Shown here: in pieces, positions 12,058 through 63,706 of the stretch
Layout: every line of letters begins with the position of its first letter
Numbering within the stretch: position 1 is the first letter of the stretch
Source: Hydrangea macrophylla
Lineage: Eukaryota; Streptophyta; Magnoliopsida; Cornales; Hydrangeaceae
Direction: 5' to 3'
DNA length: 64,000 nt
Assembly: GCA_033977485.1 (NCBI GenBank)
Contig: CM066984.1
Location: 25,565,001-25,629,000, forward strand
The notes under the pieces: model-generated
What the model saw: only the letters and a program-made list of their open reading frames with translations
Told to the model about the DNA's origin: nothing
Databases searched by the model: none
Made by a program: the position numbers and the translations under genes

Positions 12058-12098
<41 letters not shown>

Positions 12099-21000: not shown

Positions 21001-24000
21001 GTCTTCCAACTTTTGCCGAGACATATCAGCATGTTCTACGGAGCACCCCTCTAACCCACCTCCCTCCCCTTCGCTTGTTGATCGCTCCGCCCTTATTACT
21101 CAGACTCCACCAGCTCCTGGTAGGGGTGGTGGTCCTAACCGTGGAAGACGTGGAAGGGGATTTCGGGGTGGTCGTCCTGGCCGTAGTAGAGGTCAGACTC
21201 TCCAGTGCACTTATTGTTTTCGGGATGGGCATAGCATAGACACATGCTGGCAACTCCATGGTCGTCCCCCTCAGGTTGCGAATGCTATCATCTCTGATTC
21301 TAGGTACTCTCCTGTTACTACTCCTATAGATACTGTTTCTGTTCCTCGCGGGGAATACTCTCAGTTGCTTTAGTATCAGGCAGCACACCAAGCATCCACC
21401 TCATCTGCTTCCTTAGCTCAGCATGGAGGTACACATACTGCTTGCATTGTTTCAGGTTCTTCCCCATGGGTAATTGATTCTGGCGCGAGTAATCATTTGA
21501 CAGGTATATCTAGTCTTTTTACATCTATCCGACTGTAATCGCCTCTTCCCCCAATCACTTTAGCGGATGGGTCCTCGACTCTTGTTGAAGGAATCGGGAC
21601 GGCTCAACCCTCTTCGTCTTTATCCTTGTCTTCTGTTTTGTACATACCTCGTTTGTCCTTGAATTTAATGTCTGTTGGTCAGTTGACTAAGGATCTTAAC
21701 TGTTGTGTCTCTTTTTCTCCTGATTCTGTTCTTATTCAGGATTTGACGACTTGGAAGACGATTGGCGTCGGGCATGAGTCCAATGGCCTCTATTACTTTG
21801 ATGGTGATCCTGTCCCTGCTCCTTCACCCACTGCCAGTCTTGCTACCGTTTCACTTCATTAGTTCCACTGCCGCCTCGGTCACCCTCCATTGGCTAATTT
21901 GAAGCTCTTTGTTCCTAGTTTAAGTTCTTTATAGTCTTTAGAGTGTGAGTCGTGTCAGTTGGGAAAGCATCACCATGTTCAATTTGCTCCCCGGGTCAAT
22001 AAAAGAGCATCTTCAATTAGTGCATTCTGATGTATGGGGTCCTCACCGTATAACCTCCCAAAAGGAGTATCGGTATTTTGTTACTTTTGTGGATGATTGT
22101 TCAAGAGTAACTTGGCTATATTTAATGAAAAATCGTTTTGAGTTATTTTTTATTTTTTGTGCTTTTTGTGTTGAAATTAAAACTCAATTTGGTGTGCCAA
22201 TTCGTGTTCTTCGAAGTGATAATGCAAATAGTACTTTTATGACACATTCTTGCATGATTCATCAATCTTCTTGTGTACACACACCACAACAAAATGGTGT
22301 TGCCGAGAGGAAAAACTGGCACGTATTAGAAGTCACACGCACCCTGTTATTTGACATGCGTGTTCCAAAATTTTTTTGGGGAGATGCTGTCCTCACTGCT
22401 AGGTATTTGATTAACCATATGCCATCTTCTATCCTCAATGGCCGCACACCACACTTCGGCTTATTCCCTGTTGAGTCACCCTTCTCGATCGTTCCTCGTG
22501 CTTTTGGGTGTGTTTGCTTCATTCATCAGCTGGCTCTTGGTACTGACAAATTAGATCCACGAGCCATTCAGTGTATTTTCTTGGGATACTCTAGGACTCA
22601 GAAAGGGTACCGTTGTTACAATCCTTCCCTTCATCGGTACTTTGTCTCTGCCGATGTCACATTCTTCGAGTCTAAACCCTTTTATTCAGAGTCCCACTCG
22701 GCTGTTGATTCGGATTTTATGCTTCTTGTTCCTCTTCCTGTCTCTCCTGTCCCAACTACTACACCACCTACTCATGATGCTTCCACCCGCTTGTCTCGGC
22801 CTGATTTGCAAGTTTATACTCATTATCCACATCTAGAGACTCTATTGGACTCTGCTGCTCCGCCTCCGCCTACCGTGTCCTCAGATCCGCCATCTTCTTT
22901 TCCAGAACCGACTGATTTAGATCTTCTCATCGCTCTCAGAAAGGGTAAGCGTTCTTGTACTACTTCTCATCCTATTACTAACTTTGTGTCTTATGATCAT
23001 TTGTCTCCTACATTTTCTTCATTTGTTGCTTCCGTGTCTACCATATCTATTCCTAAGAATGTTGCAGAGGCACTTGCTTATTCTGGTTGGAACCAAGCTA
23101 TGCAGGATGAGATGTGTGCCCTTAAGGAAACTGGTACTTGGGATTTGGTCCCTCTCCCGCCAGGGAAATCTGTGGTTGTTTGCCGTTGGGTGTATGCAGT
23201 TAAAGTTCATCCAGATGGCACTCTGGATTGGTTGAAGGCACGCCTTGTTGCCAAAAGCTACACTCAAGTTTATGGACTTGATTATTCAGAGACTTTTTCT
23301 CCCGTGGCCATGATTGCCTCTGTTCGCCTTTTCATCTCACTAGCCACTATTTATCACTGGCCCCTTCATCAGTTAGATGTTAAGAACGCGTTTCTGAATG
23401 GTACCCTCCTTGAGGAGGTTTACATGGAGCAACCACCTGGGTTTATTGCTCAGGGGGAGTCTACTCTGGTTTGCAAATTAAAAAGTCTCTTTATGGTTTG
23501 AAGCAGTCTCCTCGTGCTTGGTTTGGCAGGTTCAGTGATGTAATTGCTGAGTTTGGTCTTCAGAGATGTGGTGTTGACCATTATGTTTTCTATAGACACT
23601 CTGTAGCGGGGAAGATCCTGTTAATTGTTTATGTTGATGATATCGTCATTACTGGTGATGACCCTAAGGGCATTCAGGAGTAGAAATCCTTCTTATAAAT
23701 CACGTTTTAGACCAAAAACTTGGGGCAGCTTAGGTATTTCTTAGGCATTGAGGTGGCCAGGTCTAGTGAAGGGATCTGCTTATCTCAGAGAAACTATGTT
23801 CTTGATTTGCTGACTGAGACAGGAATGTTGGGATCAAAACCTTTGGATACTCCTATGGATCCAATTCCAAATTATTGCCATATCAGGGGGAGCTACTTGA
23901 TGATTCAGGATAGTATTGACGCTTATTTGGGAAACTTAACTATCTAACGATCACGATACCTGATGTTGCCTTCGCAGTTAGTGTAATTAGTCAGTTTGTG

Positions 24001-40925: not shown

Positions 40926-43271
40926 CTATATGGTACTCAGAAAAGATGTAGGACTGGGAGGTATAGGTATGTCTACTGTCCCTTCTAGCATCAATAGAAC
41001 TTTCTTCATCGAAGGCCTCAGCGATGGCTCGTCTTGGATGCACCAAAGTCCCACTCTCACCATTCTCTCCAGTTTTCTCTTGTCAACCTCCTCATCCCCC
41101 ACTAGTTTCCCCACCTCACCTGATTGGAAACACTCATAAACCCATTCTTCAAGAACAGCCTCATCCTCAGACAGGCTCCAATCCACACTCCTCCGACAAC
41201 ATATTATCTCAAACAACACTATTCCATAGCTATAAACATCTGCTTTAACCGTCACAGGCAATTTTCGGTGCCACTCAGGTGCAACATAGCCACGTGTTCC
41301 TCTAATCCCGGTAAATGTATTAGTCTGATCTGGTTTTAATAGCTTCGCCAGTCCAAAATCAGCAATCTTTGCACACCTATACTCGTCCATGAGTATATTT
41401 TGAGGTTTGATGTCACAATGAATGATCTGAGTCTCACACTCTTCGTGTAGATACAAGATTCCTCTTGCTATATCCAGAGCAATACTAATTCTTTCATCCC
41501 AATTATATGTCCTTTTCTCTAAAGATGTCGGAAATAGTAAATCTGCAAGTGACCCATTGGCCATGAACTCGTACACTAGGAGTCTCTTAGGTCCATTGAG
41601 GCAGTAACCGAGTAAACGGACTAGATTACGATGATGGGTTTTTCCGATCACTTTCATTTCTGTTTGAAACTCTCTTTCTCCTTCTGCTAAAACTTTGTCT
41701 AGTCTCTTCACGGCCACGACCTTCTGGTTTTTCATTATGATCCCTTTATAAACCGTTCCAAATGATCCTTTACCCACCTCTTCTTTGAATCCGTCTGTGA
41801 CTTTCTCTAGTTCTGCATAAGTAAATGCCCGTGGTGCAACGTCCTCATAAAGTTCAACATTCCCGGTCTCGGAGATTTTCCTATATGCATATACATGGTT
41901 TCTGTATATAAAAGCTCCAGAAATTACCAGGACAATAAATGCGATGACTAAAAATGAAACACTCACAATTAGGATGCCAACTCTTATCTCTTTCTTTCTC
42001 TCTCCAGGGAGATCATCTTTGATGGCAGGTGTAGAAGATGTAGCAACCTTGATAAGAGCAATGGTTGGATCACTCAGTAACCTTCTTCCATATCTCAAAG
42101 GAAGCCTTTGCTTTCTACATTCCTCATCTCTGAATAACGCAGCTTCACAATTACAGTCCTCCAAGCAGGCCTTTTCACAATTTTCTTTGCTTATTGACAA
42201 AGATAAATAAGAAATATCCTCCCACCAGGTATTATGCAATTCTGTCATGGTGTAAACGACCTTTCCGTCACCGTCTTTGCAACTTTCTGCTGTGAAATTT
42301 CTTTCACATCCCAAACTCCAATTGCCAGGACTGACAGAATCAAATCCCGGAAGACATATACAGTCAGGTACGTCGTCCAATAAAATACAATACCCATTTA
42401 GCCCACATAGACCTTTGGGACTACACCTATCACTCGAAGACGACCATATAGCTGAAAAATTGCCTCTCTGATCCAAACCACGAGAATAAAGCCGGAAAAT
42501 ACCATCAACATCGAGTTTCAAAAGATAAAGTTTTCCTTTTGTGGAAGACGCTTGTGTTAGATTCATTAAACTGGTATTTGAATTGAGTAAGTAGAGACGA
42601 CCATTATCATCGAGGTTCAGTGTCACATTCTCACCAACTCCATTCGTGCCTGATGCCCAATACGAGTACTGCGCTTCATCAGGTGTGTTCACCGGGTACT
42701 GAACCAAATGCCCATCAGCTTGCATATTGAGACGAAAAATCCCAGTTGTGCGGTCAGTTGCTGAAGAACTAGAAAACAGTTGTTGCCTTGCTTTGAGCCT
42801 CTGTCCAGGAAGCAATGTGTCGGTTGGGTGATTGAAACTCTCCCATATAATCATTTGGTTTGAGTTGTAGATTACAAAATTGCCCGAATCAAGCATGGAT
42901 GCGAAAGAAGCAGCAGGTTGGGAAGAATCAGCAATGTTTATACCTTGGCCTTGAGTTGATTGTAGAATGAGCCTTCCATCACTAGTTAGTGTCAAGGTGG
43001 CGTTTCCGGGGACAGGAGGGTGATTTCGGTTGGCAGTCCACACCACGGTCTGTTCTGGAATTCCGGCAAGAAAGACTCCGACGGCAAAGCCATTACCTTG
43101 CCGGTAGAATCCAAAGGCGTAGAGACCGGAGCGTGACAGCCATGAGGAGTTGGTGGTGGTGGGTGTTAGAGAAGAGCCTAGGCTTATTATGTTGGATTGT
43201 CTTTGTTGAGCTTCTGCTGCTATAGTACACAATGCATAGAGAAGAAGGGAGAGAAAGATAGCAGCTGCCAT
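40926..43271 (-). CDS. G-type lectin S-receptor-like serine/threonine protein kinase (LECRK/RLK1 type)
   Basis: A single-exon, 781-residue intact frame encodes a type I plasma-membrane receptor kinase. A signal peptide (about 1-22, cleavage near AEA/QQ) is followed by a bulb-type mannose-lectin region (about 30-150, VVWTANRNHPPV, LDSGNFV, WESFNHPTDTLLPGQ). Next come an EGF-like stretch (about 283-322, CSPKGLCGLNGYC, CLPGF), a PAN/apple-like cysteine cluster (about 331-386) and a transmembrane helix (about 430-456). The kinase domain (about 493-765) has GKGSFGTVYKG, Lys522 in VAVKRL, HCDIKPQN (618-625) and DFG (638-640). Cys in place of Arg before the catalytic Asp makes it a non-RD kinase, common in immune receptors. 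Family members act in defence and stress signalling; the ligand is unknown. All catalytic residues are present. Confidence 0.95.
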   Translation of the reverse strand: MAAAIFLSLLLYALCTIAAEAQQRQSNIISLGSSLTPTTTNSSWLSRSGLYAFGFYRQGNGFAVGVFLAGIPEQTVVWTANRNHPPVPGNATLTLTSDGRLILQSTQGQGINIADSSQPAASFASMLDSGNFVIYNSNQMIIWESFNHPTDTLLPGQRLKARQQLFSSSSATDRTTGIFRLNMQADGHLVQYPVNTPDEAQYSYWASGTNGVGENVTLNLDDNGRLYLLNSNTSLMNLTQASSTKGKLYLLKLDVDGIFRLYSRGLDQRGNFSAIWSSSSDRCSPKGLCGLNGYCILLDDVPDCICLPGFDSVSPGNWSLGCERNFTAESCKDGDGKVVYTMTELHNTWWEDISYLSLSISKENCEKACLEDCNCEAALFRDEECRKQRLPLRYGRRLLSDPTIALIKVATSSTPAIKDDLPGERKKEIRVGILIVSVSFLVIAFIVLVISGAFIYRNHVYAYRKISETGNVELYEDVAPRAFTYAELEKVTDGFKEEVGKGSFGTVYKGIIMKNQKVVAVKRLDKVLAEGEREFQTEMKVIGKTHHRNLVRLLGYCLNGPKRLLVYEFMANGSLADLLFPTSLEKRTYNWDERISIALDIARGILYLHEECETQIIHCDIKPQNILMDEYRCAKIADFGLAKLLKPDQTNTFTGIRGTRGYVAPEWHRKLPVTVKADVYSYGIVLFEIICCRRSVDWSLSEDEAVLEEWVYECFQSGEVGKLVGDEEVDKRKLERMVRVGLWCIQDEPSLRPSMKKVLLMLEGTVDIPIPPSPTSFLSTI

Positions 43272-43314
43272 ATTTTCTTTTCTGTGCCTCTTCTATGTTC
43301 TCCACTCTGCAGTT

Positions 43315-47739: not shown

Positions 47740-48018
47740 TGTAGACACCCCAATTTTGACCAACCGTAGAAATCAGGAGAGTGTCGCCTCCGTATCCGAT
47801 AATAACAAGGACCGGAAGATTCGAAGTATTCCAAGCTCTTCAGAAAGTTCTCTAAAACGCGGTAAAATTTCACAGAAAAGAGAAAATACCAGGTATTTAG
47901 GAGAATTCAGGTATAAAACACAATTTTCGGAAAATATCCTCACGAATCATTTGCTTTGAAAAAAAGAAAAATCTAAAAGGGGGAATTTTAGCTAAAAACG
48001 GCACACGGCGGACTGCTG

Positions 48019-48312
48019 CGGCACTCACAGAGTGCCGCACGGCAGTCACAGAGTGCCGGGCCGGCATTCACCAAGTGCCGCCTGAAATTTCTGAATGTCG
48101 TTCACTTTTAAAGTCTGTATTCTGCAGAGCAATACGTATGCGTATGCGAATAAGAACAAAAACTGATAAAGTAAGACTGACAAAAACGCGGCAATCAATT
48201 AATTGCAGCGGCGGTTGATGAGTGCCGCACGGCATTCACTGAGTGCCGGCACGACATTCATGGACTGCCGCGGCGGCATTCACGGAATGCCGCGGCAGTT
48301 TGTCGACTGCCG
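48019..48312. repeat. Phased GC-rich palindrome arrays in the LTR
   Basis: Nineteen-base units CGGCANTC-NNN-GANTGCCG start at 48019, 48040 and 48062, and again at 48230, 48252 and 48274, with a 20-base unit at 48293; spacing is 21-22 bp apart from the last. Perfect stems include CGGCACTC/GAGTGCCG (48019) and CGGCATTC/GAATGCCG (48274); CGGCAGT/ACTGCCG at 48293 swaps the same pair. The array in the second LTR (56363-56656) is the same with small changes. Confidence 0.85.
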
Positions 48313-48421
48313 CCCTGGGCAGCAGTCTGTCTAAATTCAGAAAGCACACATTGTACCACCAAATGAAAGAATTACACCTGTTTTTTGCTCCGAAATTCAC
48401 CAAAAATACCTGGTAATTTTG

Positions 48422-48431
48422 CCTATAAGAG
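48422..48431 (+). promoter_or_regulatory. TATA-like box of the PMD-element LTR
   Basis: CCTATAAGAG followed by GAAGGAGAG lies about 110 bp downstream of the palindrome array, a plausible U3/R core promoter. Confidence 0.5.
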
Positions 48432-50318
48432 AGAAGGAGAGTTATACAACAAAGGGGGACACTAGGTAGAACATCCATAACTACTACATCAACACATTTT
48501 TGGAGAGAAAAGAGAAGGGAGTTTAGAGAATTAAGAAGAAGAGTTTGGAAGATCTTCAAAGAATACTTTGAGGATAATTTGGAGGTGATCCCCTATGCCT
48601 TAGATTACTTGTTTACTCTTTTTCTTTTTGGACTAAAATCTTTTGTTATCTTTGTTTGTCAAGAAAGCTTAGGAGTTTCTATTTCTAATTCTCCCTTCAA
48701 TTTCTTGCATATATTCTTCTCTTGAGAGTCTTGGAGATCTTCAATATCTCTCTTGATTCTCTTGAGTATGATCCTTTGAACCTCATGTAAAGCTCATACT
48801 CTACATGGGAGTCAAGATTTGATCATCACTTTGTTTTACATAGTTGAATCCAAGTCCATGCCAATGACTTGGATCCTCTAAACTTGGTATTTAATGAAGT
48901 CATTCCTTTAATCTTCTTGAAACTTAGGAGTATTAGCCATGTCTTTGTCTCCCATGACCATCAAATGGTAGGAGTAATAAGTTTGAATTCAAGCTTTGGT
49001 CTATAAAGTTTTGAGTTCATTGTTTGGAATTTTGAGAAGCTCATTTCATACTTCATCAAAATCCATAAGCATAAAGTGACCTTTAGTCTTCAAGGACCAT
49101 CAAATGGTAAGAAAAGTAGTTTGGTTTAATCTCAACTTCATGTCTTCAATAGTTGAGGTTAACCAACAAAGTTGAACTAGCAAAATAAAAACAGTAAGTG
49201 CACGAACTGTTTTTGATCAAAGATTTTTAGTTCGAAATCTAACCGTTGAAATCAAGCGAAACCAACGGGAAAGTGTCAATAACACATCATTCTACCACTG
49301 CAATTTTGTTTTTGAGGTGGTTTTATGTTTAGAAAGGTTTGATCATGGGTTTTGTGAGACAACCACAATCTGTCCAGAATTTCAGAATAGTTTCAGAACA
49401 GCAAACCGATTTTAAAATTGATAGATCAGAGATCTAACCAAGTTTTCATGACCTCTAATATTTTTTTATAAGAACCTTAATGTGTTATTAAGGTTCCCTA
49501 AAAAGAATGAAGCAATTCGGACTTGTTTGCTATTTTTAAAAAATCATACAAGATCTCTGGACAGAGAGTTGTAAAGTGTTGAGTGATGCCTAGTGTTTTC
49601 TACATTCCCGGAGATCTAACCGTTCAAACCTTGATTTTCTTTCTGGGTTAGAAACTAGACTCACAGAGGCATAACATACCCAAAAATCATTCAGATCCAA
49701 CCGTTGGAAGTATTTTATTTCTATTTTTGAACATCTGGTCTGCTCTCTGTAATTCATAAAAACTGCTACTATTTTTTGTCTAATCTTACTTATTTCAACT
49801 CAAATGGTCTCTTAATGCCTTAGGACCCAAATCATACTTTGAATAATGGTAACTTAGCTTAAATCCAGAGGCTAGGTGACCCAAATTAGTGAATAAATCC
49901 ATGTCTTATTCTTGTTCACATCCATTCATTCATGTACATTAATGCTTATAATTAGAATTAGTAATTGGATAAAGTTGGATTTCATTGCTTGCTAGGTATA
50001 AGCTAGAGAATTAGGATTGATTGTTTGATATCATATTATTATTATGTGAAGCATGTGGACTAACCCTTTGTTTTGTAGCGCTATTAAGGTATGATTTCTA
50101 GGACTCCTCTTTAGTTTATCTTAATTTCTTGATTTTGTTGATTTTTCGACTTAATGCACGACACCTTAGAATTAGGTTTTGCCTTATGTGTATATGTGAT
50201 TAGAGACTCTTTTTTAGGATTTTCTTTTGTTCGCATGCATTGCACGTTTACTATCGCTGGTGGATCCCGGGTAAGTTCACTTGTTCTCTATTGCATATCA
50301 TATCGCTTGCTACCTGAA

Positions 50319-51242
50319 TTATGTGGCTTTTGAATGATATTTTGTCAATTGCAATTTTACACCCTTTGGACATGCTTTTTGTGATGTATATTCACTAATT
50401 TGGTCAGGAATGTAGAAAGTCGTAGCATGCAAACCCGACAGCCAGATGCCAGGTCGCCCAGGGAGGCGTACAGCAACAGAGCGACAGATCCACGACGGAC
50501 AAACCCAACAGATGTCACTAGAAGAAAGACCCTGAAGCCAACCAAGCCACGCGACGGCGGACTGAAACAAGCTGTGAATCTCCATGCGATCATAAGGAAG
50601 TGACCCACGGAGATGGGAAGCATGTATGAAGAGGTCTAGACGCTCCATGAGCCAAATTTGCAAGACAAAAGGTGCCCCAGCGGATAACATGACCCCAGTG
50701 GCATGAGCATGACCCAATCCAATCAGAGTTTCACCTAGGACTAGCATAACAACACTTTTCATCTCCCGCAAACCGCAGGCGATGGGTATGAGAGTGTCCG
50801 AAGATGATCGAAAGAGAAAGTAAGAGAGCATAGCAATCGACAAGGCACTACGTCGAATGATCTGATACTCACCATTGTAAGGGTCCCCTATGGGAGCATA
50901 AACAGAAGAAAGGCGCTCAAAGTCGATTTGCCTGTCATGAACAAAAGAGCCCGCCGCATTCCGAGACATGTGGAGAAGGGTGGCTAAGTCCCGAACATAC
51001 CCGGCCTGAATCTGAGGAACCATCAATTCAGCAGAAGGATCCGTGTGGAGAATAGCGCTAAACTCCTCAAATAAGGGACAGATCTCCTGAGAGCCGAAAC
51101 GAAAGACATTGAGAGCAGGATCCCAACATTGGACGGCGGCGCGAAGTAGACCCTCATTTAGATTCATCTGTTGGAAAGAGAAGAGATCGTTTAGTCTGAA
51201 GCACTCAAAATTGAGCTTGTCAATACCAGAGAGAGTATCCAT
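50319..51242 (-). CDS. DUF7745/plant-mobile-domain-like protein, C-terminus fused to LTR
   Basis: The 307-residue frame on the minus strand contains VQCWDPALNVFRFGSQEI (about 37-54), then EEFSAILH, then ALSIAMLSYFLFRSSSDT and VLGETLIGLGHAH. This is the pattern of the DUF7745/PMD-like family (FWDPxxxxFRFGxxELxPxLEEYxAxL) that is frequent in plant transposons. Its molecular role is unknown; related PMD proteins act in gene silencing. The final 24 or so residues and the stop codon are read from LTR sequence (50319-50390), so the native C-terminus is lost. A TATA box lies 90 bp upstream of the ATG, and a palindrome array lies just beyond it. It is antisense to the retroelement. Confidence 0.7.
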   Translation of the reverse strand: MDTLSGIDKLNFECFRLNDLFSFQQMNLNEGLLRAAVQCWDPALNVFRFGSQEICPLFEEFSAILHTDPSAELMVPQIQAGYVRDLATLLHMSRNAAGSFVHDRQIDFERLSSVYAPIGDPYNGEYQIIRRSALSIAMLSYFLFRSSSDTLIPIACGLREMKSVVMLVLGETLIGLGHAHATGVMLSAGAPFVLQIWLMERLDLFIHASHLRGSLPYDRMEIHSLFQSAVAWLGWLQGLSSSDICWVCPSWICRSVAVRLPGRPGIWLSGLHATTFYIPDQISEYTSQKACPKGVKLQLTKYHSKAT

Positions 51243-51330
51243 GGGAAGAGGATTTGAGAACTAATGGGGGCCATTTGGAGAGGAAATGAGAATAAATGAG
51301 AAGTGTTTTGCGGAACTTTGAGAATGAAGG

Positions 51331-51340
51331 GATATAAATA
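51331..51340 (-). promoter_or_regulatory. TATA box of the DUF7745-like gene
   Basis: On the minus strand TATTTATATC lies about 90 bp before the start codon and about 30-45 bp downstream of the palindrome array. Confidence 0.6.
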
Positions 51341-51368
51341 GAAGAATAAGGCTGCCTACCTACCTGCG

Positions 51369-51490
51369 GCACTCGATAAAGTGCGGCGGCACTCGATGAA
51401 GTGCCGCGCGGCAGTCAGTGAATGCCGTTGCGGCATTTACTGACTGCCGTAGCGGCTCTCACCGAGTGCCGCGGAGACCTAACCGAGTGC
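51369..51490. repeat. Phased palindrome array upstream of the DUF7745-like gene
   Basis: Units start at 51387, 51409, 51431 and 51453, exactly 22 bp apart, with partial units on both sides. CGGCACT/AGTGCCG (51387-51406) is a perfect stem; the others keep the CGGC...GCCG ends with mismatches in the arm tips. The motif is the same as in the LTR and upstream of the PMD gene. Confidence 0.8.
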
Positions 51491-51603
51491 CGTTCTGAGT
51501 TTTTCATTGGCCAGGATCTGTTTGTAACACGATCAGCCCACCTGCAAACAGAAAACTAATTGAGAAGCAATAAAAACGTGTGCATCATGCAGCACGTACA
51601 AAT

Positions 51604-51640
51604 ACATTCATTCATTCATTCATTCATTCATTCATTTCAT
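51604..51640. repeat. CATT tetranucleotide repeat
   Basis: About nine units of CATT, slightly degenerate at the right end, between the two antisense genes. Confidence 0.9.
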
Positions 51641-51903
51641 TTATTTTCCAAAAGATAAAAGAAGCAAGAACATTCAAAGATAAAATAAAGACGGGATCAA
51701 GCCATGATCCCACATACGGCAAGAATTGGACCAAGCTATGGTCACACATACGGTGAAAAGCAATAATGTAATAAAAGTATTAGGAAAGCCTATCCTACCA
51801 ACTATCAGGGAGAAGCTATCAAAATAAAGCATATGTGTATATATACAGTCATCCACCAAAATAAAAATCCTCTCAAAAGAAACAAAAAATGATAAAAGCA
51901 GGA

Positions 51904-54642
51904 TCAGCTCCGACCCCGACCCCGGCCGCGAGTCTGACGAGTCGTGCGCCTAAGAGGCTCCTCCTCTGACTCGGTCCCGCTGCCTCCACCACTCTTTCCA
52001 CGCCCGTTGCCTCGGCCTCTGCCACCGCTAGTGCCCTCGCCGACGCCTCCGCCACGCCCAGCACCGCTACCTCCGGGGGCATCGCTGAGAGAGATGCCAA
52101 ACTGCTGAAGCCGCTGCTGAAGCTGACCCACCTGCTGAGATAGGACTCTGATCTCCTCCGCCTGAAATGAGAAAAATAAGTCCAAGCAACGTTGAAACAA
52201 CGGATAAAATACTGAGAATAAAAGGAATAAAAGATCATACATGGGCCCTCAGCTGGGTCGCAGCAGTCGCCTGAGCTCCCTCAGCCTGAAAAACAAGTCC
52301 CGAGTAAGAAGGGGGACAATCAAAATCACCGTCAAAGTGAAAATGAAAGTGAAAGGTGGAGAGGAGTCTCTTACCATCCACTCGCGCCTGAGAACCCACT
52401 GTCGCACGCTATGGGCATACGTCAAACCCTCCTCCGCGTAGGCACGCGGGACGACGTCATAATGGATAGGAATTGTGGGGGCGCCCCGTGATAGCCGGGG
52501 GATCGTCGTCACGTGGGGCTCACCAAATGAGACGGTCGACATGGTCCAGTCCCACTCGGGCAAGGCAGGAGGTCGAACCGCGGCAGGAACAGGCTGCAAA
52601 CAAAGGTAATAAAACATGAAAAAGGAATAAAAGGAGAACTCACAGAGATAATAAAGGAATCATTTACTCACCCGAGTCACTTCCATCAGAGGGAAGTCCG
52701 GCATCAGCTTGGCGGCACGGAAGGCCGCATATCCATCAGGATCGTCCAAGAAGCCGTGGATACCGAAGCCGGCTCGAGCAGCCGTGAACTCGCTGCCCTG
52801 AAGTGTATCAGTGGCCCTCATAGAGTCGGGAGGAGGGAATGGCACGAAGAATCTGGGGGCCGCTAGTGACTGCCTGGTCACCCTCTCTCCTAGATACCAC
52901 GCCTGGCCCTCTGGCCTACATAGAATTCGCCTCGTCGGGTCATACCCGGCCGACTCTCGAATCCCCACACTAGCCTCGGGCAGCACCCTGAGCCACGGCT
53001 GCCAGTGTACATGCTCCTCCCGTAGGTTTGTCAGGAAGTTCCTGAACGAAACAAAGTCGTGAGCTCCGGTCTTCCGCCCAACCCTGTCCTTCGCCCATTT
53101 CAGCCCCTGAGGCATGGCGAGGGCGTCAGCATCGCGTGTCACTGGAGACATCATGCGAAAGTACTCGTGGGACCAGATCTGCAATAATAAAATGAGGGGG
53201 TTAGTTTCTCAAAATTGAATAAAATTCTGAAAGCATAAAAAGGGTAATGAAACGTGAAAATATACCTCCCACGCTCTCCAATACCCGCTGGTAGCAGCCG
53301 ACCTGTCCCGGGAGATGGCACTCATATGCCTGTACAGGATAGATAATCCTGCACCAGCCCAATCAAACTCAGCGACCCGGTCCAGACGCTCCAGCGACGC
53401 CACCAAGGTAGCAGAAATCCGGTCACCCTTGGTGCTCAACAAGGAGCACCCCAGCATGTACATCAAGAAGCCTCGGGCCATCTGCTCGTCGGTAAAGCCG
53501 GGTTTCCCCCGGAAGGTATCCATAAACCACTGGGCCGTGACCAAGGCCTCCTCCGGAACCACCCCTAACAACGGCTCCATCTGGTCCCACTCCTGGTCCG
53601 TCAAATACCTCAGAGGCTCTCCGCCAAAGGCGATCCCTGTGATCATGGAGAAGTCCAATGGCGTCAGCGTCATCTCGCCAAATGAAAAGTGAAAAGTACT
53701 CGTGGTATCCCACCACCGCTCAGCCAACGCATGCATCTGCTGTAGGTCGTTGGAGCTCTTCGTCAAGAGTTTGACGAAGTCTCCAAACCCTGCTGCGTCA
53801 ATAAGCCCCCGTATGGTCTCACTCAGCTCCGTATACCACTCGTAGCCATGAGCAAGGCTGCCATAACCCTTCAGCACCTTCGGCTGCAGCTGCAAGAAAG
53901 AATAAAAAGGTTTGTTGTTAGGGAGTGGATAAAGAAGAAAGCAACAACAGTAAATAAATGATAAATAAAGGAGTGTTCATAGGGGATTTCACAAGCAAAG
54001 CACTCGTTTGCATTCAAGAGGAAATGAATAATAATAAATAAAAAAAAGAAAGAGAAATAGTAGTTTGTTCACATTCTAGCAAGGTTTCGAAAAGAAAAGA
54101 AAGAGAAATAGTAGTTTGTTCACATTCTCTAAAATACACGCACATATAAGTTTTGAAAGAGATTTTTGGGCCCGAAAAAGTACAAGTTTCGAAGAGAAAT
54201 GCGTAATTGCAAACATTCAAGAATCAATAAATGGCACTTGAAATGCTCAAAGAAAACCCGCCAGTGTAGTAAGAACAGGAGAAGTGTTCGGAATATTCAA
54301 ACATAACATCCAGTTTCCGAGGTTCAAGAGAATTGAAAAGAGAATAAAATAGATTTCCTTTACAAAAGGCATGGAATAAATTATTCGAGACGCTCGGGGA
54401 CGCCACGAGCACGACACTCGGGACAGGGTATCTAAGGAGTCGTGGCAATCCTACGTTACATTCACGTAAAGAAGGAAATGCGGGAAAGAAATACGAAAAA
54501 TAAATAAAAGGGGAGCGTTTACCTCGCGCTTGAACGCGCGGGCCGAAAAATGCTCATCGGGGTCCCTCAGTAGAAGTGTAGCGTCCGGGTGATGAGTAGC
54601 AGTGTATCTGGCCTTCTTCTTACGCCCTGAACCACTCGCCAT
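51904..54642 (-). CDS. Plant mobile domain (PMD) protein, six exons, intact
   Basis: The minus-strand exons are 54523-54642, 53266-53889, 52672-53178, 52375-52593, 52241-52285 and 51904-52161. All introns are GT-AG and all phases are 0, giving 590 codons uninterrupted to the stop. The N-terminus is basic (MASGSGRKKKARYTATHH). The PMD core spans about residues 42-330 with DAAGFGDFVKLL, ERWWDTTSTFHFSFGEMTLT and PLDFSMITGIAFGGEPL. A Gln-rich coiled-coil-like segment (LSQQVGQLQQRLQQFG) precedes an Arg-Gly-rich, acidic-patched tail ending RQTRGRGRGRS. PMD proteins such as MAIN/MAIL work in the nucleus in transposon silencing and genome stability, and related domains are carried by transposons. It lies antisense to the surrounding LTRs, which explains how introns survive in a retroelement. 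A 5' UTR intron (54646-54746) is likely. Confidence 0.85.
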
Positions 54643-54645
54643 AAT

Positions 54646-54746
54646 CTGTCAAAGGAAAAGAGAAAATCCGCGCGTTAGATTAATGAAAATTCGAAAAAAC
54701 AATGAAATAAATAGGTTTAATCAAACTCTGATCTAGCAGAACTAAC
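54646..54746 (-). other. Likely 5' UTR intron of the PMD gene
   Basis: On the minus strand ACAG/GTTAGT at 54747/54746 and TTTGACAG/ATT at 54646/54645 give canonical ends for a 101-bp intron, ending 3 bases before the ATG. Confidence 0.55.
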
Positions 54747-54905
54747 CTGTGAATGTCGTAGATCAATATAGGAGTGAGGAAAGAAAAAGAGAAAATTTTC
54801 TCCAGAGAGATTTCGAGATGAAGAGAGTGAGAGAATGAGAAAAATGTTTTGAACCCGGCGGTTTAAGCCACTGCCGCTCAAACGCGACACTCATTTTTTC
54901 GTGCG

Positions 54906-54989
54906 CGACAGTCAGTCAATTGCCGCGCGGCACTCGCCGAGTGCCGCACCGGCACTCCGTGAGTGCCGCGCGGCAGTCACGGACTGTCG
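54906..54989. repeat. Phased palindrome array upstream of the PMD gene
   Basis: Units start at 54906, 54928, 54950 and 54971 (spacing 22, 22, 21). CGGCACTC-GCC-GAGTGCCG and CGGCACTC-CGT-GAGTGCCG are perfect 8-bp stems with different loops; CGGCAGTC-ACG-GACTGTCG has one G-U pair. The array ends about 265 bp before the ATG. No clear TATA box follows; a pyrimidine-rich leader does. Confidence 0.85.
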
Positions 54990-55172
54990 CTAAAAACCGC
55001 GTGTGCCGCGATTAAGGCGGTTCAAGGATATTTACTTTCCCTCCAAAAATTCAAATCAAGTCCCGAAAATTGAATTTGAGGCCCCAAAAATTGCCCTCAT
55101 TGCACTTTTGGCCCTCAGGGTCGTTTTTTAGGTACACATTTGACTACAAATTTTGGAATTTAAGAGTATATA

Positions 55173-55308
55173 TGAGCCCGTGGGCCCCCAATTTTTTGAA
55201 AATTGAAGATGATTGAGCCCGTGGGCCCCCAATTCTGAAAGGTGAAAATATTTGAGACCAGTGGGCTCCCAATGTTTGAAAGTTGAAAATATTTGAGCCC
55301 GTGGGCCC
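55173..55308. repeat. GAGCCCGTGGGCCC degenerate repeat
   Basis: Four copies of GAGCCCGTGGGCCCCCAAT or variants start at about 55173, 55217, 55252 and 55294, separated by TTGAAA-rich text. Confidence 0.8.
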
Positions 55309-55620
55309 AGATTTATATTCTCGGTTCTCGCAACGGATTTGCGTTAACCCCCGTTTTGAGAATATAACAGATTTATATTCTCGGTTCTCGCAACAGATTT
55401 GCGTTAACCCCCGTTTTGAGATTATAACAGATTTATATTCTCGATTCTCGCAACAGATTTGCGTTAACCCCCGTTTTGAGAATATAACAGATTTATATTC
55501 TCGGTTCTCGCAACAGATTTGCGTTAACCCCCGTTTTGAGAATATAACAGATTTATATTCTCGGTTCTCGCAACAGATTTGCGTTAACCCCCGTTTTGAG
55601 AATATAACAGATTTATATTC
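55309..55620. repeat. 60-bp tandem array, 5.2 units
   Basis: Units of exactly 60 bp begin AGATTTATATTCTCGGTTCT and differ by one to three bases. Each unit junction forms GAGAATATAA-CAGAT-TTATATTCTC, a perfect 10-bp stem with a 5-base loop. Because 60 is divisible by three, frames stay open on both strands; these are not genes. It sits in the 3' untranslated part of the Tat element. Confidence 0.95.
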
Positions 55621-56069
55621 TTCCCCCGAGATCAAATCAAAAAAATAAAAAAAATCACGACCCCTGTAAGAGATCTTCGCATCGGTCACTGAATTAGGTG
55701 ATTTTCCTTAACTAACACGTCACACAAGATGCGTAAGAGAGACATGATGAGCATGACATTTGTACAATCGGTTCAATTCAGAAAGAACCATGGCATGGCA
55801 TTTGCATCACGATTGGATAGGTGCATTCATCCGTGTGACTACTTGCGTTTGTGTGTGTTCGGTCCCCGTGTTTGAACTACGCTTTGGTCTGATTCCCCGA
55901 TGGGATACGTAGGCAACTCGCCATCGAGCACGACCAGCATGAACCGTTCGTACAGCCGATTTTTGCAACGCATTTTGTTTTTACCTAAATTCGACAGTCT
56001 GGTCAAAGGCTTGTCTTCACACAGGCTTTGACAATCACTTATGGGACGCGTTGCCCCACAAGCTCTGTC
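55621..56069 (+). other. Tat-element 3' untranslated region
   Basis: No gene is seen. TTTGAACTACGCTTTGGTCT and GGGATACGTAGGCAACTCG (55871-55920) are words typical of the region just before the 3' LTR in plant Tat/Ogre-like elements. Confidence 0.6.
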
Positions 56070-56083
56070 AAAGAGGGGCAAAC
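56070..56083 (+). promoter_or_regulatory. Polypurine tract of the PMD element
   Basis: AAAGAGGGGCAAAC directly precedes TGTAGACACC of the second LTR and fixes the element's orientation as plus. Confidence 0.8.
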
Positions 56084-58734
56084 TGTAGACACCCCAATTT
56101 TGACCAACCGTCGAATTCAGGAGAGTGTCGCCTCCGTATCCGATGATAACAAGGACCGAAAGATTCGAAGTATTCCAAGCTCTTCAGAAAGTTCTCTAAA
56201 ACGCGGTAAAATTTCACAGAAAAGAGAAAATACCAGGTATTTAGGAGAATTCAGGTATAAAACACAATTTTCGGAAAATATCCTCAAGAATCATTTGCTT
56301 TGAAAAAAAGAAAAATCTAAAAGGGGGAATTTTAGCTAAAAACGGCATACGGCGGACTGCCGCGGCACTCACTGAGTGCCGCACGGCAGTCACAGAGTGC
56401 CGGGCCGGCATTCACCAAGTGCCGCCTGAAATTTTTGAATGCCGTTCACTTTTAAAGTCTGTATTCTGCAGAGCAATACGTATGCGTATGCGAATAAGAA
56501 CAAAAACTGATAAAGTAAGACTGACAAAAACGCGGCAATCAATTAATTGCAGCGGCGGTTGATGAGTGCCGCACGGCATTCACTGAGTGCCGGCACGACA
56601 TTCATGGACTGCCGCGGCGGCATTCACGGAATGCCGCGGCAGTTTGTCGACTGCCGCCCTGGGCAGCAGTCTGTCTAAATTCAGAAAGCACACATTGTAC
56701 CACCAAATGAAAGAATTACACCTGTTTTTTGCTCCGAAATTCACCAAAAATACCTGGTAATTTTGCCTATAAGAGAGAAGGAGAGTTATACAACAAAGGG
56801 GGACACTAGGTAGAACATCCATAACTACTACATCAACACATTTTTGGAGAGAAAAGAGAAGGGAGTTTAGAGAATTAAGAAGAAGAGTTTGGAAGATCTT
56901 CAAAGAATACTTTGAGGATAATTTGGAGGTGATCCCCTATGCCTTAGATTACTTGTTTACTCTTTTTCTTTTTGGACTAAAATCTTTTGTTATCTTTGTT
57001 TGTCAAGAAAGCTTAGGAGTTTCTATTTCTAATTCTCCCTTCAATTTCTTGCATATATTCTTCTCTTGAGAGTCTTGGAGATCTTCAATATCTCTCTTGA
57101 TTCTCTTGAGTATGATCCTTTGAACCTCATGTAAAGCTCATACTCTACATGGGAGTCAAGATTTGATCATCACTTTGTTTTACATAGTTGAATCCAAGTC
57201 CATGCCAATGACTTGGATCCTCTAAACTTGGTATTTAATGAAGTCATTCCTTTAATCTTCTTGAAACTTAGGAGTATTAGCCATGTCTTTGTCTCCCATG
57301 ACCATCAAATGGTAGGAGTAATAAGTTTGAATTCAAGCTTTGGTCTATAAAGTTTTGAGTTCATTGTTTGGAATTTTGAGAAGCTCATTTCATACTTCAT
57401 CAAAATCCATAAGCATAAAGTGACCTTTAGTCTTCAAGGACCATCAAATGGTAAGAAAAGTAGTTTGGTTTAATCTCAACTTCATGTCTTCAATAGTTGA
57501 GGTTAACCAACAAAGTTGAACTAGCAAAATAAAAACAGTAAGTGCACGAACTGTTTTTGATCAAAGATTTTTAGTTCGAAATCTAACCGTTGAAATCAAG
57601 CGAAACCAACGGGAAAGTGTCAATAACACATCATTCTACCACTGCAATTTTGTTTTTGAGGTGGTTTTATGTTTAGAAAGGTTTGATCATGGGTTTTGTG
57701 AGACAACCACAATCTGTCCAGAATTTCAGAATAGTTTCAGAACAGCAAACCGATTTTAAAATTGATAGATCAGAGATCTAACCAAGTTTTCATGACCTCT
57801 AATATTTTTTTATAAGAACCTTAATGTGTTATTAAGGTTCCCTAAAAAGAATGAAGCAATTCGGACTTGTTTGCTATTTTTAAAAAATCATACAAGATCT
57901 CTGGACAGAGAGTTGTAAAGTGTTGAGTGATGCCTAGTGTTTTCTACATTCCCGGAGATCTAACCGTTCAAACCTTGATTTTCTTTCTGGGTTAGAAACT
58001 AGACTCACAGAGGCATAACATACCCAAAAATCATTCAGATCCAACCGTTGGAAGTATTTTATTTCTATTTTTGAACATCTGGTCTGCTCTCTGTAATTCA
58101 TAAAAACTGCTACTATTTTTTGTCTAATCTTACTTATTTCAACTCAAATGGTCTCTTAATGCCTTAGGACCCAAATCATACTTTGAATAATGGTAACTTA
58201 GCTTAAATCCAGAAGCTAGGTGACCCAAATTAGTGAATAAATCCATGTCTTATTCTTGTTCACATCCATTCATTCATGTACATTAATGCTTATAATTAGA
58301 ATTAGTAATTGGATAAAGTTGGATTTCATTGCTTGCTAGGTATAAGCTAGAGAATTAGGATTGATTGTTTGATATCATATTATTATTATGTGAAGCATGC
58401 GGACTAACCCTTTGTTTTGTAGCGCTATTAAGGTATGATTTCTAGGACTCCTCTTTAGTTTATCTTAATTTCTTGATTTTGTTGATTTTTCGACTTAATG
58501 CGCGACACCTTAGAATTAGGTTTTGCCTTATGTGTATATGTGATTAGAGACTCTTTTTTAGGATTTTCTTTTGTTTGCATGCATTGCACGTTTACTATCG
58601 CTGCTGGATCCCGGGTAAGTTCACTTGTTCTCTATTGCATATCATATCGCTTGCTACCTGAATTATGTGGCTTTTGAATGATATTTTGTCAATTGCAATT
58701 TTACACCCTTTGGACATGCTTTTTGTGATGTATA
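56084..58734 (+). repeat. Second (3') LTR-like repeat of the PMD element
   Basis: It matches 47740-50390 with about 15 differences counted by eye. Beyond 58734 it continues into leader-like sequence (to about 58990) that is shared with the inverted copy but absent after the first repeat. It may therefore also have served as the 5' LTR of a second, truncated unit. Confidence 0.8.
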
Positions 58735-58990
58735 TGTATATATGTATTAGTTGAGGGCATGCTTAGATTAATAAATTTGATTAAAAGGATGTTGAGTAGA
58801 GGTTTATCGCAAGATAGGGTGAGAGAGGGTGTTTTAGTCCGACGGACTCCTTCCTCTCTCATTCCATAATCCCCGGACCTAGTTAATCTCTGGTTTCTAA
58901 AAGATCAGTTTGCTTTTAAAATGGTTTCTTAATTTTCCTTTTAAAAAATTAAGTATCGACTCATTTGTTTTAGAAATTGATTTTGAAAAG
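58735..58990 (+). mobile_element. Tat leader fragment following the second LTR
   Basis: It aligns in inverted orientation with 59725-60007, for example CATGCTTAGATTAATAA, TCATTCCATAATCC and AGATCAGTTTGCTTTTAAAA. It breaks off near 58990. Confidence 0.65.
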
Positions 58991-59068
58991 CTGTGGGTAA
59001 GGAAAAATGCGATATCCACAGAATGCACAAGAAAAGAAAAAAGGACGGTTAAACCGACCGCGTGGATT

Positions 59069-59420
59069 ACCGAGAAGTCGAACCCCCAAGAAAAGGAAAG
59101 AAAACGGTACGTGGACTTACCGAGAATTCAAACCACTAAGAAAAGGAAAAGAAAACGGTGGACTCATCGAGAAGTCGAACCACCAAAGAAAGAAAAACAA
59201 AATAGTGGGCTTACCGAGAAGTCGTACCACTAAAGAAAGGAAAAAAGAAAACGGTGGACTTACCGAGAAGTCGAACCACCAAATAAAGGAAAATGGTGGA
59301 CGTATTGAGAAGTCGAACCACTAAAGAAAGGAAAAAAGAAAATGGAGGACTTACTGAGAAGTCGAACCACCAAAGAAAGAAAAATGGTGAACTTACCGAG
59401 AAGTCGAACCACCAAAAGTA
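59069..59420 (+). repeat. Minisatellite of 42-50 bp units at the centre of an inverted repeat
   Basis: Eight units each start with ACCGAGAAGTCGAACCACC or a variant and end in a GGTGGACTT-like segment; unit lengths vary through A-rich indels. Open frames across it are repeat artefacts. Confidence 0.9.
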
Positions 59421-59724
59421 GGGATAGAGAAATTTTACCTGTGAGTTCCGAGTGCAGAAGTGGCTATTGAAGTCTAATTAGTTATTTTTTGGTTTTTTGT
59501 ATTTTTTTTTTTGTATTTTTAACAAGAATATGTACGGAGAAGGCCAGGTTTGAGGACTTTACTTCGAGAAAACGTTATAGAATAAGAGTCGGGAGGCACG
59601 AGTTGAGTTGCATCTTCAAATGGGCTTACATGGATGTCACCGATGAGTCTGAAAGGGTCGAAATAGCTTAAAAGCCCACTAGTTCGGGCTGAATCGGGAT
59701 TGGGCTGAGCGAGGAGGGACTCGT

Positions 59725-60007
59725 TGTGGATATCGCAGGCTAGCCACGTTTTAACTTTTCCAAATTCAAAATACGAGTCGCCACTTAATTTTAAAGGAAA
59801 ATTAAGAAACCATTTTAAAAGCAAACTGATCTTTTGGAAACCAGAGATTTCTAGGTCCGAGGATTATGGAATGAGAGGGGAAGGAGCCAGGCAGACTAAA
59901 GCACCCCCTCTTATCTTATCTCATGATAGGCCTCTACTCAACACCATTTTTGATCAAATTATTAATCTAAGCATGCCATCAACTAATGCATATATATATA
60001 TATATAT
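59725..60007 (-). mobile_element. Inverted Tat leader copy
   Basis: The complement of 58735-58990 with moderate divergence; on the minus strand it ends in GTGGCGACTCGTATTTTG. It is contiguous with the inverted LTR at 61512-63706 once the intervening solo LTR is removed. Confidence 0.65.
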
Positions 60008-61017
60008 TGTTGGGTTTATGCCCTCAAACCATTGCTTTATGTATGACATTAGCATTTTAATATATGGATATCTGTTTTACATTTCATTATGTATGTTTCT
60101 TTCATGAGATGATTTTCAATCCTTAAGTATCATAGTAGGTAATTTGTGTGTGTATGAGATACATACGAGTTAGATATGAATTACCATCCTTTGATACTTT
60201 AAGCATGTCACAGTGGATGATGAGACTGGATATCTCATCAGGTATACACTGTAACATAATTAACTATCATTGGATGGAGTGATTAATCTCAATCACTAGA
60301 GTGTCACTCTTAGTTAATATGCTAGTGCTTATAGTGCATTGACGGACCTGAGCTTTCCTATTGACACTTAATGTTGTCAAACAGTCAATAGGAACTCATA
60401 ACTTGTGTAAGGTACGTGTTCTCAATCTTGCGACGATTATAAACACAGACTGTGGATATGGCTGCTTTGACTTACCAATCAATGAGGTCTACAGAAGATC
60501 AACACCTGGGTATCTTGGGTATGTCATGTGCATAGGGTTGTGAACATATATTGTCAAGACAGAATCTACCCTCTGTTTTAGAGTAAGCATTTCCTTGAGA
60601 ATGTCACCAAGTCGATTACTGAGTACTGCAGTCTTGTTGATAAAAGTTATTAACATGTTTGGTAATCATGAGAGGTGAATGGGACTCAAGGAATACAAGA
60701 AGTAATCATGATTCAGGTTGACAATAACAGTTATCCGACTACCTAAATATGATTACGGATGTTGAAGGTAGAGGGACATTAGTACAACATACAAGTCTAG
60801 TTATCGCTTCAGATATGTTCTTTTGCGTTGGAGTTCAGTTATCGTTTTATAGTGGAGTAAACGTTAACTGACCAGTTAGTTAGTTTGTTGATCAAAGAGT
60901 TTGGTCACGGTGATTAACAAACTGGTCTGAGCCAACAATAAAGAGCTTAGGAGGTCCCACTCTTAGCTCCTCTAGGAAGCTTAGAAGGGCACATGAGGAT
61001 CATGTCAAGGCAGGTTC

Positions 61018-61125
61018 AATTGATCGAAGGAGTTTTGATCGATTGAAGTCTAGGCAGGTTCGATCGCTCGAGGGTTGTTCGATCGATCGAAGGTTCAATC
61101 GATCGAATACACTTCGATCGCTCGA
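61018..61125. repeat. GATCGATCGAA palindrome array upstream of a TATA box
   Basis: Six variants of CGATCGATCGAAGG, including CGATCGCTCGAGGG and CAATCGATCGAAT, lie within about 110 bp, ending 24 bases before TATAAATAGG. Confidence 0.75.
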
Positions 61126-61148
61126 AGGTTAGGTCAAATCTGGGAATC

Positions 61149-61157
61149 TATAAATAG
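61149..61157 (+). promoter_or_regulatory. TATA box of the solo LTR
   Basis: TATAAATAG lies 24 bp after the palindrome array and is a textbook plant core promoter sequence. Confidence 0.7.
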
Positions 61158-61511
61158 GGCAGTTGCGTACTGAATGTTTTGAATCGTCATTTTATACGTA
61201 GAAGCTGCAGAAACTATTTAGGTTTCCCTAAATCTTCCCAATCCTCTCCATTAGGGTTCCCACCAACCCTAGTCTTTCCTGCGAGCATCCATAGGAGTCA
61301 TAAGAGTGAAGGCCATCTAGTGGAGGCCGCTGGAAGTTGAAGATTTCAGAATTGGGTTCAAGACACAAAGGTATAATACTTGTCCCCTCAGTGAAATTAG
61401 TACGCATCTATGGAATTGACGGGTAGTAGATCCTGGGCTACCAATAAGTTTTTATAACTTGTTTTTCCGCTGTGCGTTTATACTTTTAATTTAAACCGTT
61501 TTTTTCCATCA

Positions 61512-63706
61512 TATACACACATTCCAAAAGCATATCGAAAGGGGTTGTAAGATTGCTAACGGTAAAAGGCGTAGTTTAAATAATAAGCAAAATGACATGC
61601 AATAGGAAGCCAGAAAACTTACCCGGGATCCAATTGCGATATAGAAACATGCAATGCATACAAAAATAGAAAACCTAGAAAAATAGTTTCTAACACATAT
61701 ATACACATAAGGCAAATCCTAATCTAAAGTGTCGCGCATGATGTCGAAAATCAATAAAATCAAGAAATGAAATAAATGAATGAAAAGTCGAGAAATCATA
61801 CCCCAATAGCGCTAAAAAAACAAATATTAGTCCACATACCTTGAACAAAATATAATATCAAATCTTAAATATTATACCAAACTCCTATCTTAAAATCTAA
61901 CAAACATGGAGAAAGTTGACAAAATCATGAATTTCTACCAATTTGTTGAAATCAGAACATCTCTATAGATATACAAGTCTCAACTAGGAGCTAATATAAT
62001 GTCTATATAGAGATGATACAATCTGAACATGATTAAAAAGGAATCCATGACTAAGCTCAACCAATTATGGCTTATCACAATACAAAACAATGTTCTAAAT
62101 TACAAGAATCAATACACATGTGATAATAATGAATGCATGAATATGAACAAGCTGAGAATAATTCATTGATTTGGATCATTTAGCCTCTGGATTTAATCCT
62201 AATTAACTTTGTTCAAAACATTATTTAAGTTTTAGGTCATAGAAAAGTCATTTGGATCATCATTTACAAAGTTTATCAAATCTATCACAGAATTTCAAGA
62301 ATTACAAAGAATGAATCAGATATTCAAAATAATAAACTCAAGGTTCCTATGGCTTGATCTTAATGATTTTTGGATATGATGTGCCTCTGTGAGTCTAGTT
62401 TCTAACTCAAGAAGAAACTCAAAGATCAAACGGTCCAATCTCCGGGAATTAGACCAAGACTAGACACTACTTATTTATCAACTCTGTGTCCAGAGATTTT
62501 GTATGATTTATTAAAAATAGCAAACGAATCTGAATTAGTTCAATCTTGTTAGGGGATCTTATTGACTCATGAAACTTCATAGAAAAAAAAAATTTAAGCT
62601 TAAAATGTTTGATTAAAGCTTTGATCCATTCATTTTAAAAGATGTTACTGTTCTGAAATTCTGGACAGAGAACAATTGGGTTGCAAAACCCATGACCAAG
62701 TCATGTTAACCATAAAATCTCATCAAAACAAAAATTGCAGTGGTACATCAATGAGTTAGGAACAAATTCCAATTGGTCTCATCCAAATTCAACGGTTCAT
62801 GATTTAACTAAAAATCTTTGATACCGGGTCGTCATTGGAATCACTACACTGTTGTTGAATTGTCATTTCTCATTTTCGAACCCTAACATCTAAGCAATGC
62901 AAATTGGCTTCTCCTAAGCCTAATCCCTCTCTCAAGTTAATGATCCTTGAGGGATTTGAAACCTAACCCATTCATTCCTCCTCTCAAATCAATGGTCCTT
63001 GGAGGTTGTATGTACTAATCCTTATAATTTTCATTGAAACATGTGATAGCTTCATGAAACTTAAATATGATGAACCTAAGTCATGGATATGGACTTAAAC
63101 ACATCATTTATATAAACACATAACCAAAATTAATCTCAACTTTCATATAAATCATAATTTTACAGAAAATTGAGAGATTAAATCAAGTTATCTCAATGAG
63201 ATATGGAAGATCTCATGAGTTTTCAAAAGAAGAGCATAGACAAAGAGAAATAAAATCTACGCCAATTAATGATCCAAATCAAATTTCACTTTGAAAAACT
63301 TGTTTTACTTTAAAACCCAAAGCTATTTAGATCCAAATCAACAAACACAAGAAGGAATTCAATCACAATTCAAGTGGTGTGTGATGAACTGAGGCGGGAA
63401 GAGTCTTTTTGAAAATTGTGTAAAAGATCCTAGAATTCTATGAATTGTGATTGAATTTAGACTCAATACTAATCAGAATTAAAGGATTACCTCCAAATAT
63501 CCTAAGATTTTATAGGTTTTTGATGAAGATCTTCAAATATCTTCAAGTTCTTCTTCAAGCTTCTCAAACTTCAATGGCTTCTTCTTCCAATTCTCTTTTA
63601 AGCTCACCAAATTCACTCTTAATTGCTAAAATTGTTCAAATCAAGGACCCTCCTCTTTCAATGGAGACATACACCTTCTTATATAGACCCATTGGGAGAG
63701 GTTAAA
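61512..63706 (-). repeat. Diverged inverted copy of the PMD-element LTR
   Basis: On the minus strand many words match 56700-58734, including TTGGATCCCGGGTAAGTT, TAGCGCTATTGGGGTATG, CAAATGACTTTTC-like and GAGGCACATCATATCC-like segments, in the same order but with frequent substitutions. The LTR start (TGTAGACACC) is missing: the copy is cut off at 63706 by another LTR. No palindrome array is seen in the retained part. Confidence 0.7.

Follow-up and report, generated by a model that had tools for sequence, protein, structure and literature searches.

The closest described systems come from transposons and retroelements with proteins or extra genes of their own. VANC21 and VANC6 are anti-silencing proteins of the VANDAL (MULE) transposons of Arabidopsis, according to the available parts of PMC5735166 and PMC10398659. 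Among LTR retrotransposons, the accessible text of PMC6317226 reports a PMD gene as an extra open reading frame (ORF) in 57% of Ogre elements, and that of PMC11963269 places antisense extra ORFs between pol and the 3' LTR in Retand, the sister lineage of Ogre. Host proteins with a PMD domain, MAIN and MAIL1, form a complex of which the available sections of a 2023 paper say that its interaction with chromatin is not known (PMC9899485). PMD genes are a common cargo of plant retrotransposons, and the proposed operator described here bears on what they may do for the element. It concerns a stretch of 64,000 nucleotides from Hydrangea macrophylla, hereafter called the window.

The window contains an LTR retroelement that extends from 47740 to beyond 58735, with an internal sequence of 5.7 kb. 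Its LTRs both start with TG and are on the forward strand, and a polypurine tract, AAAGAGGGGCAAAC, can be read from the sequence immediately 5' of the 3' LTR (56070–56083, forward strand). The 5' LTR (47740–50391) is truncated, because its homology with the 3' LTR stops at 50391 and internal sequence follows; the homologous span of the 3' LTR is 56084–58735, and by eye this LTR runs on to about 58955. The two are 99.4% identical over 2652 bp, with 15 differences. The junction that ends the 5' LTR lies in the middle of an antisense DUF7745 gene, which means that the 3' end of the LTR, the intervening sequence, and the end of the gene are missing from this copy. Its ORFs, as far as tested, matched neither gag nor pol in domain searches, and we read the copy as a deletion derivative of its family. 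A relative (L006/L007) retains Retrotrans_gag, RVT_1, RVT_3, Integrase_H2C2, and rve, beside the LTR, PMD, and DUF7745 matches of L005–L007. The LTRs, the polypurine tract, and the relative's gag and pol indicate that the element is probably a Ty3/gypsy LTR retrotransposon, even if its own copy lacks gag and pol among these ORFs. The PMD extra ORF, a feature of the Ogre lineage (Tat clade), is present. Another Ogre feature is a second RNase H (aRH) between RH and INT; L006 has a single RVT_3 domain directly 5' of Integrase_H2C2.

Several observations concern the surroundings of this element and of its relative. An inverted, diverged copy of the same LTR lies downstream (58728–62822), in pieces that are 71–86% identical (59775–60005 and 61585–62822), and is apparently interrupted by an insertion at about 60006–61560. 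The second LTR is seemingly followed by a stretch resembling a primer site, which suggests a rearranged tandem arrangement. Between the inverted LTR copies, at 59062–59416, there are tandem repeats of 42–49 bp with an imperfect inverted repeat, GTGGACTT...AAGTC..CCAC, that differ from the arrays described below. Elsewhere in the window, Copia-type pol ORFs (RVT_2, SH3_retrovirus, rve) occur in both orientations at 14227–24726 and 40926–43292, the latter span being an ORF in which lectin, S-locus, and kinase domains are found. In the full-length relative, the ORFs that adjoin gag (L007:3277–5877 and 9203–9823) match DUF4283 in one case and zf-RVT in the other, and may belong to a nested non-LTR element.

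Two genes lie antisense within the element. The PMD gene (51904–54642, reverse strand) is intact, with its ATG at 54642 and six exons (54642–54523, 53889–53266, 53178–52672, 52593–52375, 52285–52241, and 52161 to the stop); the predicted splicing leaves all introns in phase 0 and yields a protein of 590 aa whose translation reads as basic at the N terminus and rich in glycine and arginine at the C terminus. It matches PF10536 with 125.3 bits (E 4.2e-36), against a curated cut-off of 34.9. The DUF7745 gene (50392–51242, reverse strand, ATG 51242) is represented by its first 283 codons, the 3' end having been lost at the truncated-LTR junction. The preliminary description had called both genes PMD-family. 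This holds for the first one, but the second passes the cut-off of its own Pfam family (PF24924, 27.7 bits against 26) and is not called as PMD; an ORF of one relative matches the PMD domain below the cut-off (21.1 against 34.9 bits), and BLAST gave no credible match between DUF7745 and PMD proteins (best E 0.28). Both genes are constrained, with dN/dS near 0.1 when compared with diverged relatives. Between distinct lineages the ratio is 0.07–0.19 for PMD exons 2 and 3 and 0.05–0.14 for DUF7745, for which some pairs have saturated dS and hence no ratio. Near-identical pairs exceed these values (0.30 for L005–L012 and 0.82 for L006–L012).

The palindromic pattern CGGCANTCNNNGANTGCCG matches the whole window 20 times with at most two mismatches, where 100 shuffles give 0.04 matches on average. 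All 20 matches are inside the LTR element and none elsewhere in the window. The half-site is CGGCANTC, and its successive copies alternate in strand, mostly every 10–12 bp. They form four unique arrays, at all the places named in the preliminary description, and these are longer than it had claimed. Array A of the LTR (47999–48100) has nine half-sites with at most one mismatch and sits at a constant offset, 257–268 bp from the LTR start in all seven LTRs compared. Array B (48189–48327; 11 half-sites, at most one mismatch) precedes the LTR promoter's TATA box (TATAAG, 48424–48429, forward strand, position 684 from the LTR start). The array of the DUF7745 promoter (51367–51492; 10 half-sites) is 125 bp upstream of the ATG and adjoins the CTATTTATA box, and that of the PMD promoter (54869–55008; 11 half-sites) is 227 bp upstream of its ATG. 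Together these arrays contain 41 half-sites, 9–11 in each, against means of 0.5–0.9 and a maximum of four in local dinucleotide shuffles. Both LTR arrays are copied in the 3' LTR (56343–56671), so the recurrence that had been proposed for the second LTR is borne out, as are the placement ahead of the LTR TATA box and the 22-bp period (full palindromic units are 21–22 bp apart). The interval from the PMD promoter array to the 3' LTR also contains five tandem repeats of 60 bp (55308–55621).

Palindromes of this kind could be RNA hairpins, or targets of siRNAs and RNA-directed DNA methylation, with no protein operator involved. We consider this very improbable, and the geometry of the arrays is one reason. 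In the window's four arrays, the strand alternates in 29 out of 29 neighbouring half-sites that are 8–13 bp apart, and among 143 plus-to-minus neighbours in the window and 20 genome stretches, the gap within the palindrome is 3 bp in 111 and 4 bp in 18. Steps of 10–12 bp on alternating strands put each half-site about one helical turn from the next, and the arrays are placed ahead of the LTR TATA box and upstream of gene starts. The preliminary description had also stated that the arms vary but compensate, and this did not hold up. The variable base is the same in both arms in 6 out of 15 units in the window (two of them 20-mers read in a 19-mer register), against 5.0 expected after shuffling (P 0.38), and in 38 out of 97 distinct units of a wider sample, with relatedness not removed, against 31.0 expected (P 0.06). 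The lack of significant covariation between the arms and the alternating spacing of about one turn fit paired half-sites for a protein rather than RNA stems. What speaks for an RNA-based explanation, apart from the palindromes themselves, is that PMD genes are sources of phasiRNAs in tea, with 175 PHAS loci in the available text of PMC10673657, and that differences between the LTRs are concentrated around array A. The 116 bp at 47990–48105 hold 5 of the 15 differences, four of which are C/T changes, the pattern that decay of methylated cytosines would give; array B has none.

Minisatellites are common in transposable elements (PMC11963269, accessible part). The arrays are short tandem repeats and could be functionless ones, spread neutrally as the element amplified. 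This explanation seems to us extremely improbable in view of the conservation of the arrays. We aligned the window with relatives for the DUF7745 promoter (five relatives), the PMD promoter (five), and LTR arrays A and B (six each), which gives 22 comparisons. The fixed half-site positions are more identical than the spacers and linkers of the same array in 21 of them, and more identical than the flanks in 18. Half-site identity is at least 84% in 16 comparisons, while it ranges from 35 to 94% for spacers and linkers and from 22 to 91% at the N position. Conservation of the half-sites is weaker in L024 (70 and 52%), in L008 (78%), and in array B of L017 and L016 (77 and 83%); array B of L010 has lost units, and its half-site identity (45%) is below that of its own spacers. 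Lineages whose dS is high to saturated have the arrays at the same three promoters. Their flanks in the window share no similarity clearly beyond shuffles, with the exceptions of the LTR A/B flank pair, which overlaps itself, and of the pair labelled LTR_B/geneA, whose score of 21.5 exceeds the highest shuffle score (18). A single satellite-borne GAGTGCCG in sugar-beet minisatellites (PMC2820488, available text) was considered as a related array and rejected.

We used the source genome (2.22 Gb) to assess the association between the motif and PMD elements, a check that had been named beforehand. The exact palindrome occurs 34,181 times and its reversed-pattern control eight times. We sampled 188 kb in 20 stretches at the palindrome places that come first in the list for contig 1, with the listed clusters near 0.67–0.69, 2.262, and 2.733 Mb left out, and found 36 arrays of at least four half-sites. 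For 35 of them, an LTR, PMD, or DUF7745 match is no more than 1.5 kb away. The last, in L013, has an LTR at a distance of 1529 bp and would suit the promoter of the PMD gene that begins at the end of the neighbouring stretch (L012) with its first exon, so that, once this array is assigned across the stretch boundary, all 36 sampled arrays belong to the family.

We also started from PMD itself, using protein searches of the genome in which 94 to 150 hits were scored among 11,838 to 15,436 first-look candidates. Eighteen hits were hand-picked for their divergence, and 16 were usable because the stretches of L026 and L027 stop before the promoter. An array lies upstream of PMD in 13 of the 16, which supports the co-occurrence seen from the motif side: it is of the CGGCANTC type in 12 (L025, L028–L036, L045, and L047) and a variant in one (L046). 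These loci are not independent, since L025, L028, L030–L032, and L036 are close copies. In their PMD clade, which is 55–57% identical, arrays are also found at the LTR (L037) and at the DUF7745 promoter (L038, L040); an LTR match and an array occur together in three of the four LTR-side stretches, and both are absent from L039. No recognised array was found upstream of PMD in the remaining three loci (L043, L044, and L048), all from one clade. The exon 2 tree, which has long branches and several weak forks, groups these loci with full support, and the array labels require two changes, the minimum for three groups. As the array-less clade illustrates, PMD elements can dispense with the CGGCANTC operator, or use another one that is unrecognised here. 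A motif-free count of palindromes was too noisy to be informative (5–6 per 90 bp at array loci, up to five in shuffles). Dozens of very similar copies of the L043 clade (L043 being G000:C11:28653000–28660000) are listed, which have one TGA and one TAG in common within the matched stretch. Upstream of L043, at 1.3–2 kb, 32-bp tandem repeats carry GATTGCTG at a spacing of about three turns; it is one mismatch from the half-site and in a single orientation only, and we rejected these repeats as an array. Scans of IMG/VR for the array and for PMD found nothing.

The variant array offers a view of how operator and protein change together. The PMD of L046 is 41% identical, and its promoter has six alternating half-sites of the type CGGCA(C/G)T(G/T) in exact 11-bp steps, two of them with one mismatch. 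The corresponding pattern, CGGCANTGNNNCANTGCCG, occurs 10,326 times in the source genome, and its reversed control never. Of the two places from this list that we analysed, L051 is a PMD promoter, and the PMD concerned shares 96% identity with that of L046; L050 is in an LTR of the same family (88.9% identical to L046 across the LTR boundary). The L050 array is about 870–930 bp inside the LTR, beyond the aligned block; of its six half-sites, all in phase, five belong to the new type and the sixth is CGGCACTC. Since the variant half-site is present both in this LTR and in the PMD promoters of L046 and L051, the clade has changed its operator at both places, as seen in L046 and in two of the 10,326 places. 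Motif and PMD protein thus diverge in parallel in the L046 (CGGCANTG) clade.

This bears on a further explanation, in which the three promoters owe their activity to a host transcription factor specific for CGGCANTC palindromes, and the element has merely collected its sites. Other plant LTR elements collect sites of stress factors. Here, all three promoters carry a CGGCANTC array, and the half-site is identical across PMD clades at 56% identity, which is what one would expect of a conserved host factor. One such factor accounts for the unchanged half-site of the first two clades, but the joint change in the L046 clade, where the half-site differs in both the LTR and the PMD promoter, would need a second one. 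The confinement of the 36 arrays to the family, within the 20 sampled stretches, and the predicted fold of a homologous PMD, which matches a protein–DNA complex, are also at odds with it. On balance, we regard a host factor as unlikely.

That fold match is to VANC21 bound to its DNA (structure 9LNJ; 207 chains aligned), and the predicted structure of the homologous PMD shares the fold of the VANC21 DNA-binding region. Sequence searches of solved structures returned no credible relative, one of them giving nothing under E 1; the best matches (E 4.6e-8) were to designed proteins with only 32 residues covered and were rejected. The DUF7745 protein might instead be the binder, or both proteins might act together, with PMD acting on chromatin. 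DUF7745 is equally constrained (dN/dS about 0.1), has an array at its own promoter, and adjoins PMD in the array-bearing elements whose neighbouring stretch was read (the full copies of the CGGCANTG and array-less clades lie outside this set). The predicted match to a DNA complex was obtained for PMD, the only one of the two to be folded, and makes a DUF7745 binder quite improbable in our view.

In summary, we think it likely that the arrays are an element-specific operator within a self-encoded, VANC-like circuit, with the antisense PMD protein as the most likely binder. Pairs of CGGCANTC, in 8-3-8 palindromes with about one half-site per helical turn, would be bound side by side by this protein, presumably as dimers. 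Since this operator is shared by the LTR promoter, in sense, and by the promoters of the antisense genes PMD and DUF7745, one protein could read all three, and in all copies of the family. The preliminary description had proposed an operator of the element's own PMD: the co-occurrence, the homologue's predicted fold, and the parallel change of motif and protein agree with this, while the three array-less PMD loci do not. By analogy with VANC21, the likeliest effect would be activation or anti-silencing of the family to which the element belongs, together with positive autoregulation, and the alternative would be autorepression. Provided that the protein binds, we lean towards anti-silencing because of the likeness to VANC. 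If the circuit is real, a retrotransposon has a regulator and an operator of its own, in a family of very great size (34,181 palindromes). The predicted fold and the clade-specific operators make it directly testable which PMD binds which array, and whether silencing is lifted in every copy.

How does this proposed circuit compare with known systems? It was not found described in the literature on PMD, Ogre, LTR palindromes, MAIL1/PP7L, DUF7745, and VANC21 to the extent that these sources were available, subscription journals and preprints being outside this scope. Foamy viruses, in which we know of no palindrome array, resemble it in mechanism, although protein and virus are unrelated. Their Tas is one protein, encoded by the element itself, with two targets, the LTR and an internal promoter (PMC8670036 and PMC4929722, accessible text). 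The Ogre-lineage Ty3/gypsy elements share PMD (PF10536) as an extra ORF, but the available parts of PMC6317226 describe no operator arrays or palindromes common to the LTR and extra-ORF promoters. MAIN and MAIL1 share the PMD domain and, in the available text of PMC5418596, PMC7156037, and PMC9899485, are linked to transposon silencing and to gene expression through the promoter motif DOWN; unlike the PMD genes studied here, they are host genes. The DOWN motif of the MORC1 promoter, CATGCAGTTT (PMC9899485, accessible part), has GCAGTT in common with half-sites such as CGGCAGTT, a lead only, with a rough chance of about 2%. The VANC systems also combine a protein with a short tandem motif in non-coding regions of the same element, but that element is a VANDAL (MULE) DNA transposon, and we thus describe the LTR element as working like VANC and do not file it as a member. 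The VANC motif is 9 bp long, whereas the units here are palindromic, 8-3-8, and phased near one helical turn; the motif is held across large protein divergence, and the same array is shared by the LTR and the promoters of two antisense genes, where anti-silencing is suggested by analogy only. More generally, we see about even chances that LTR retrotransposons encode, in antisense, PMD proteins of the VANC fold as anti-silencing factors, with palindromic operators proper to each clade at LTR and antisense promoters that co-diverge with them, and that MAIN and MAIL1 use the same DNA-binding fold.
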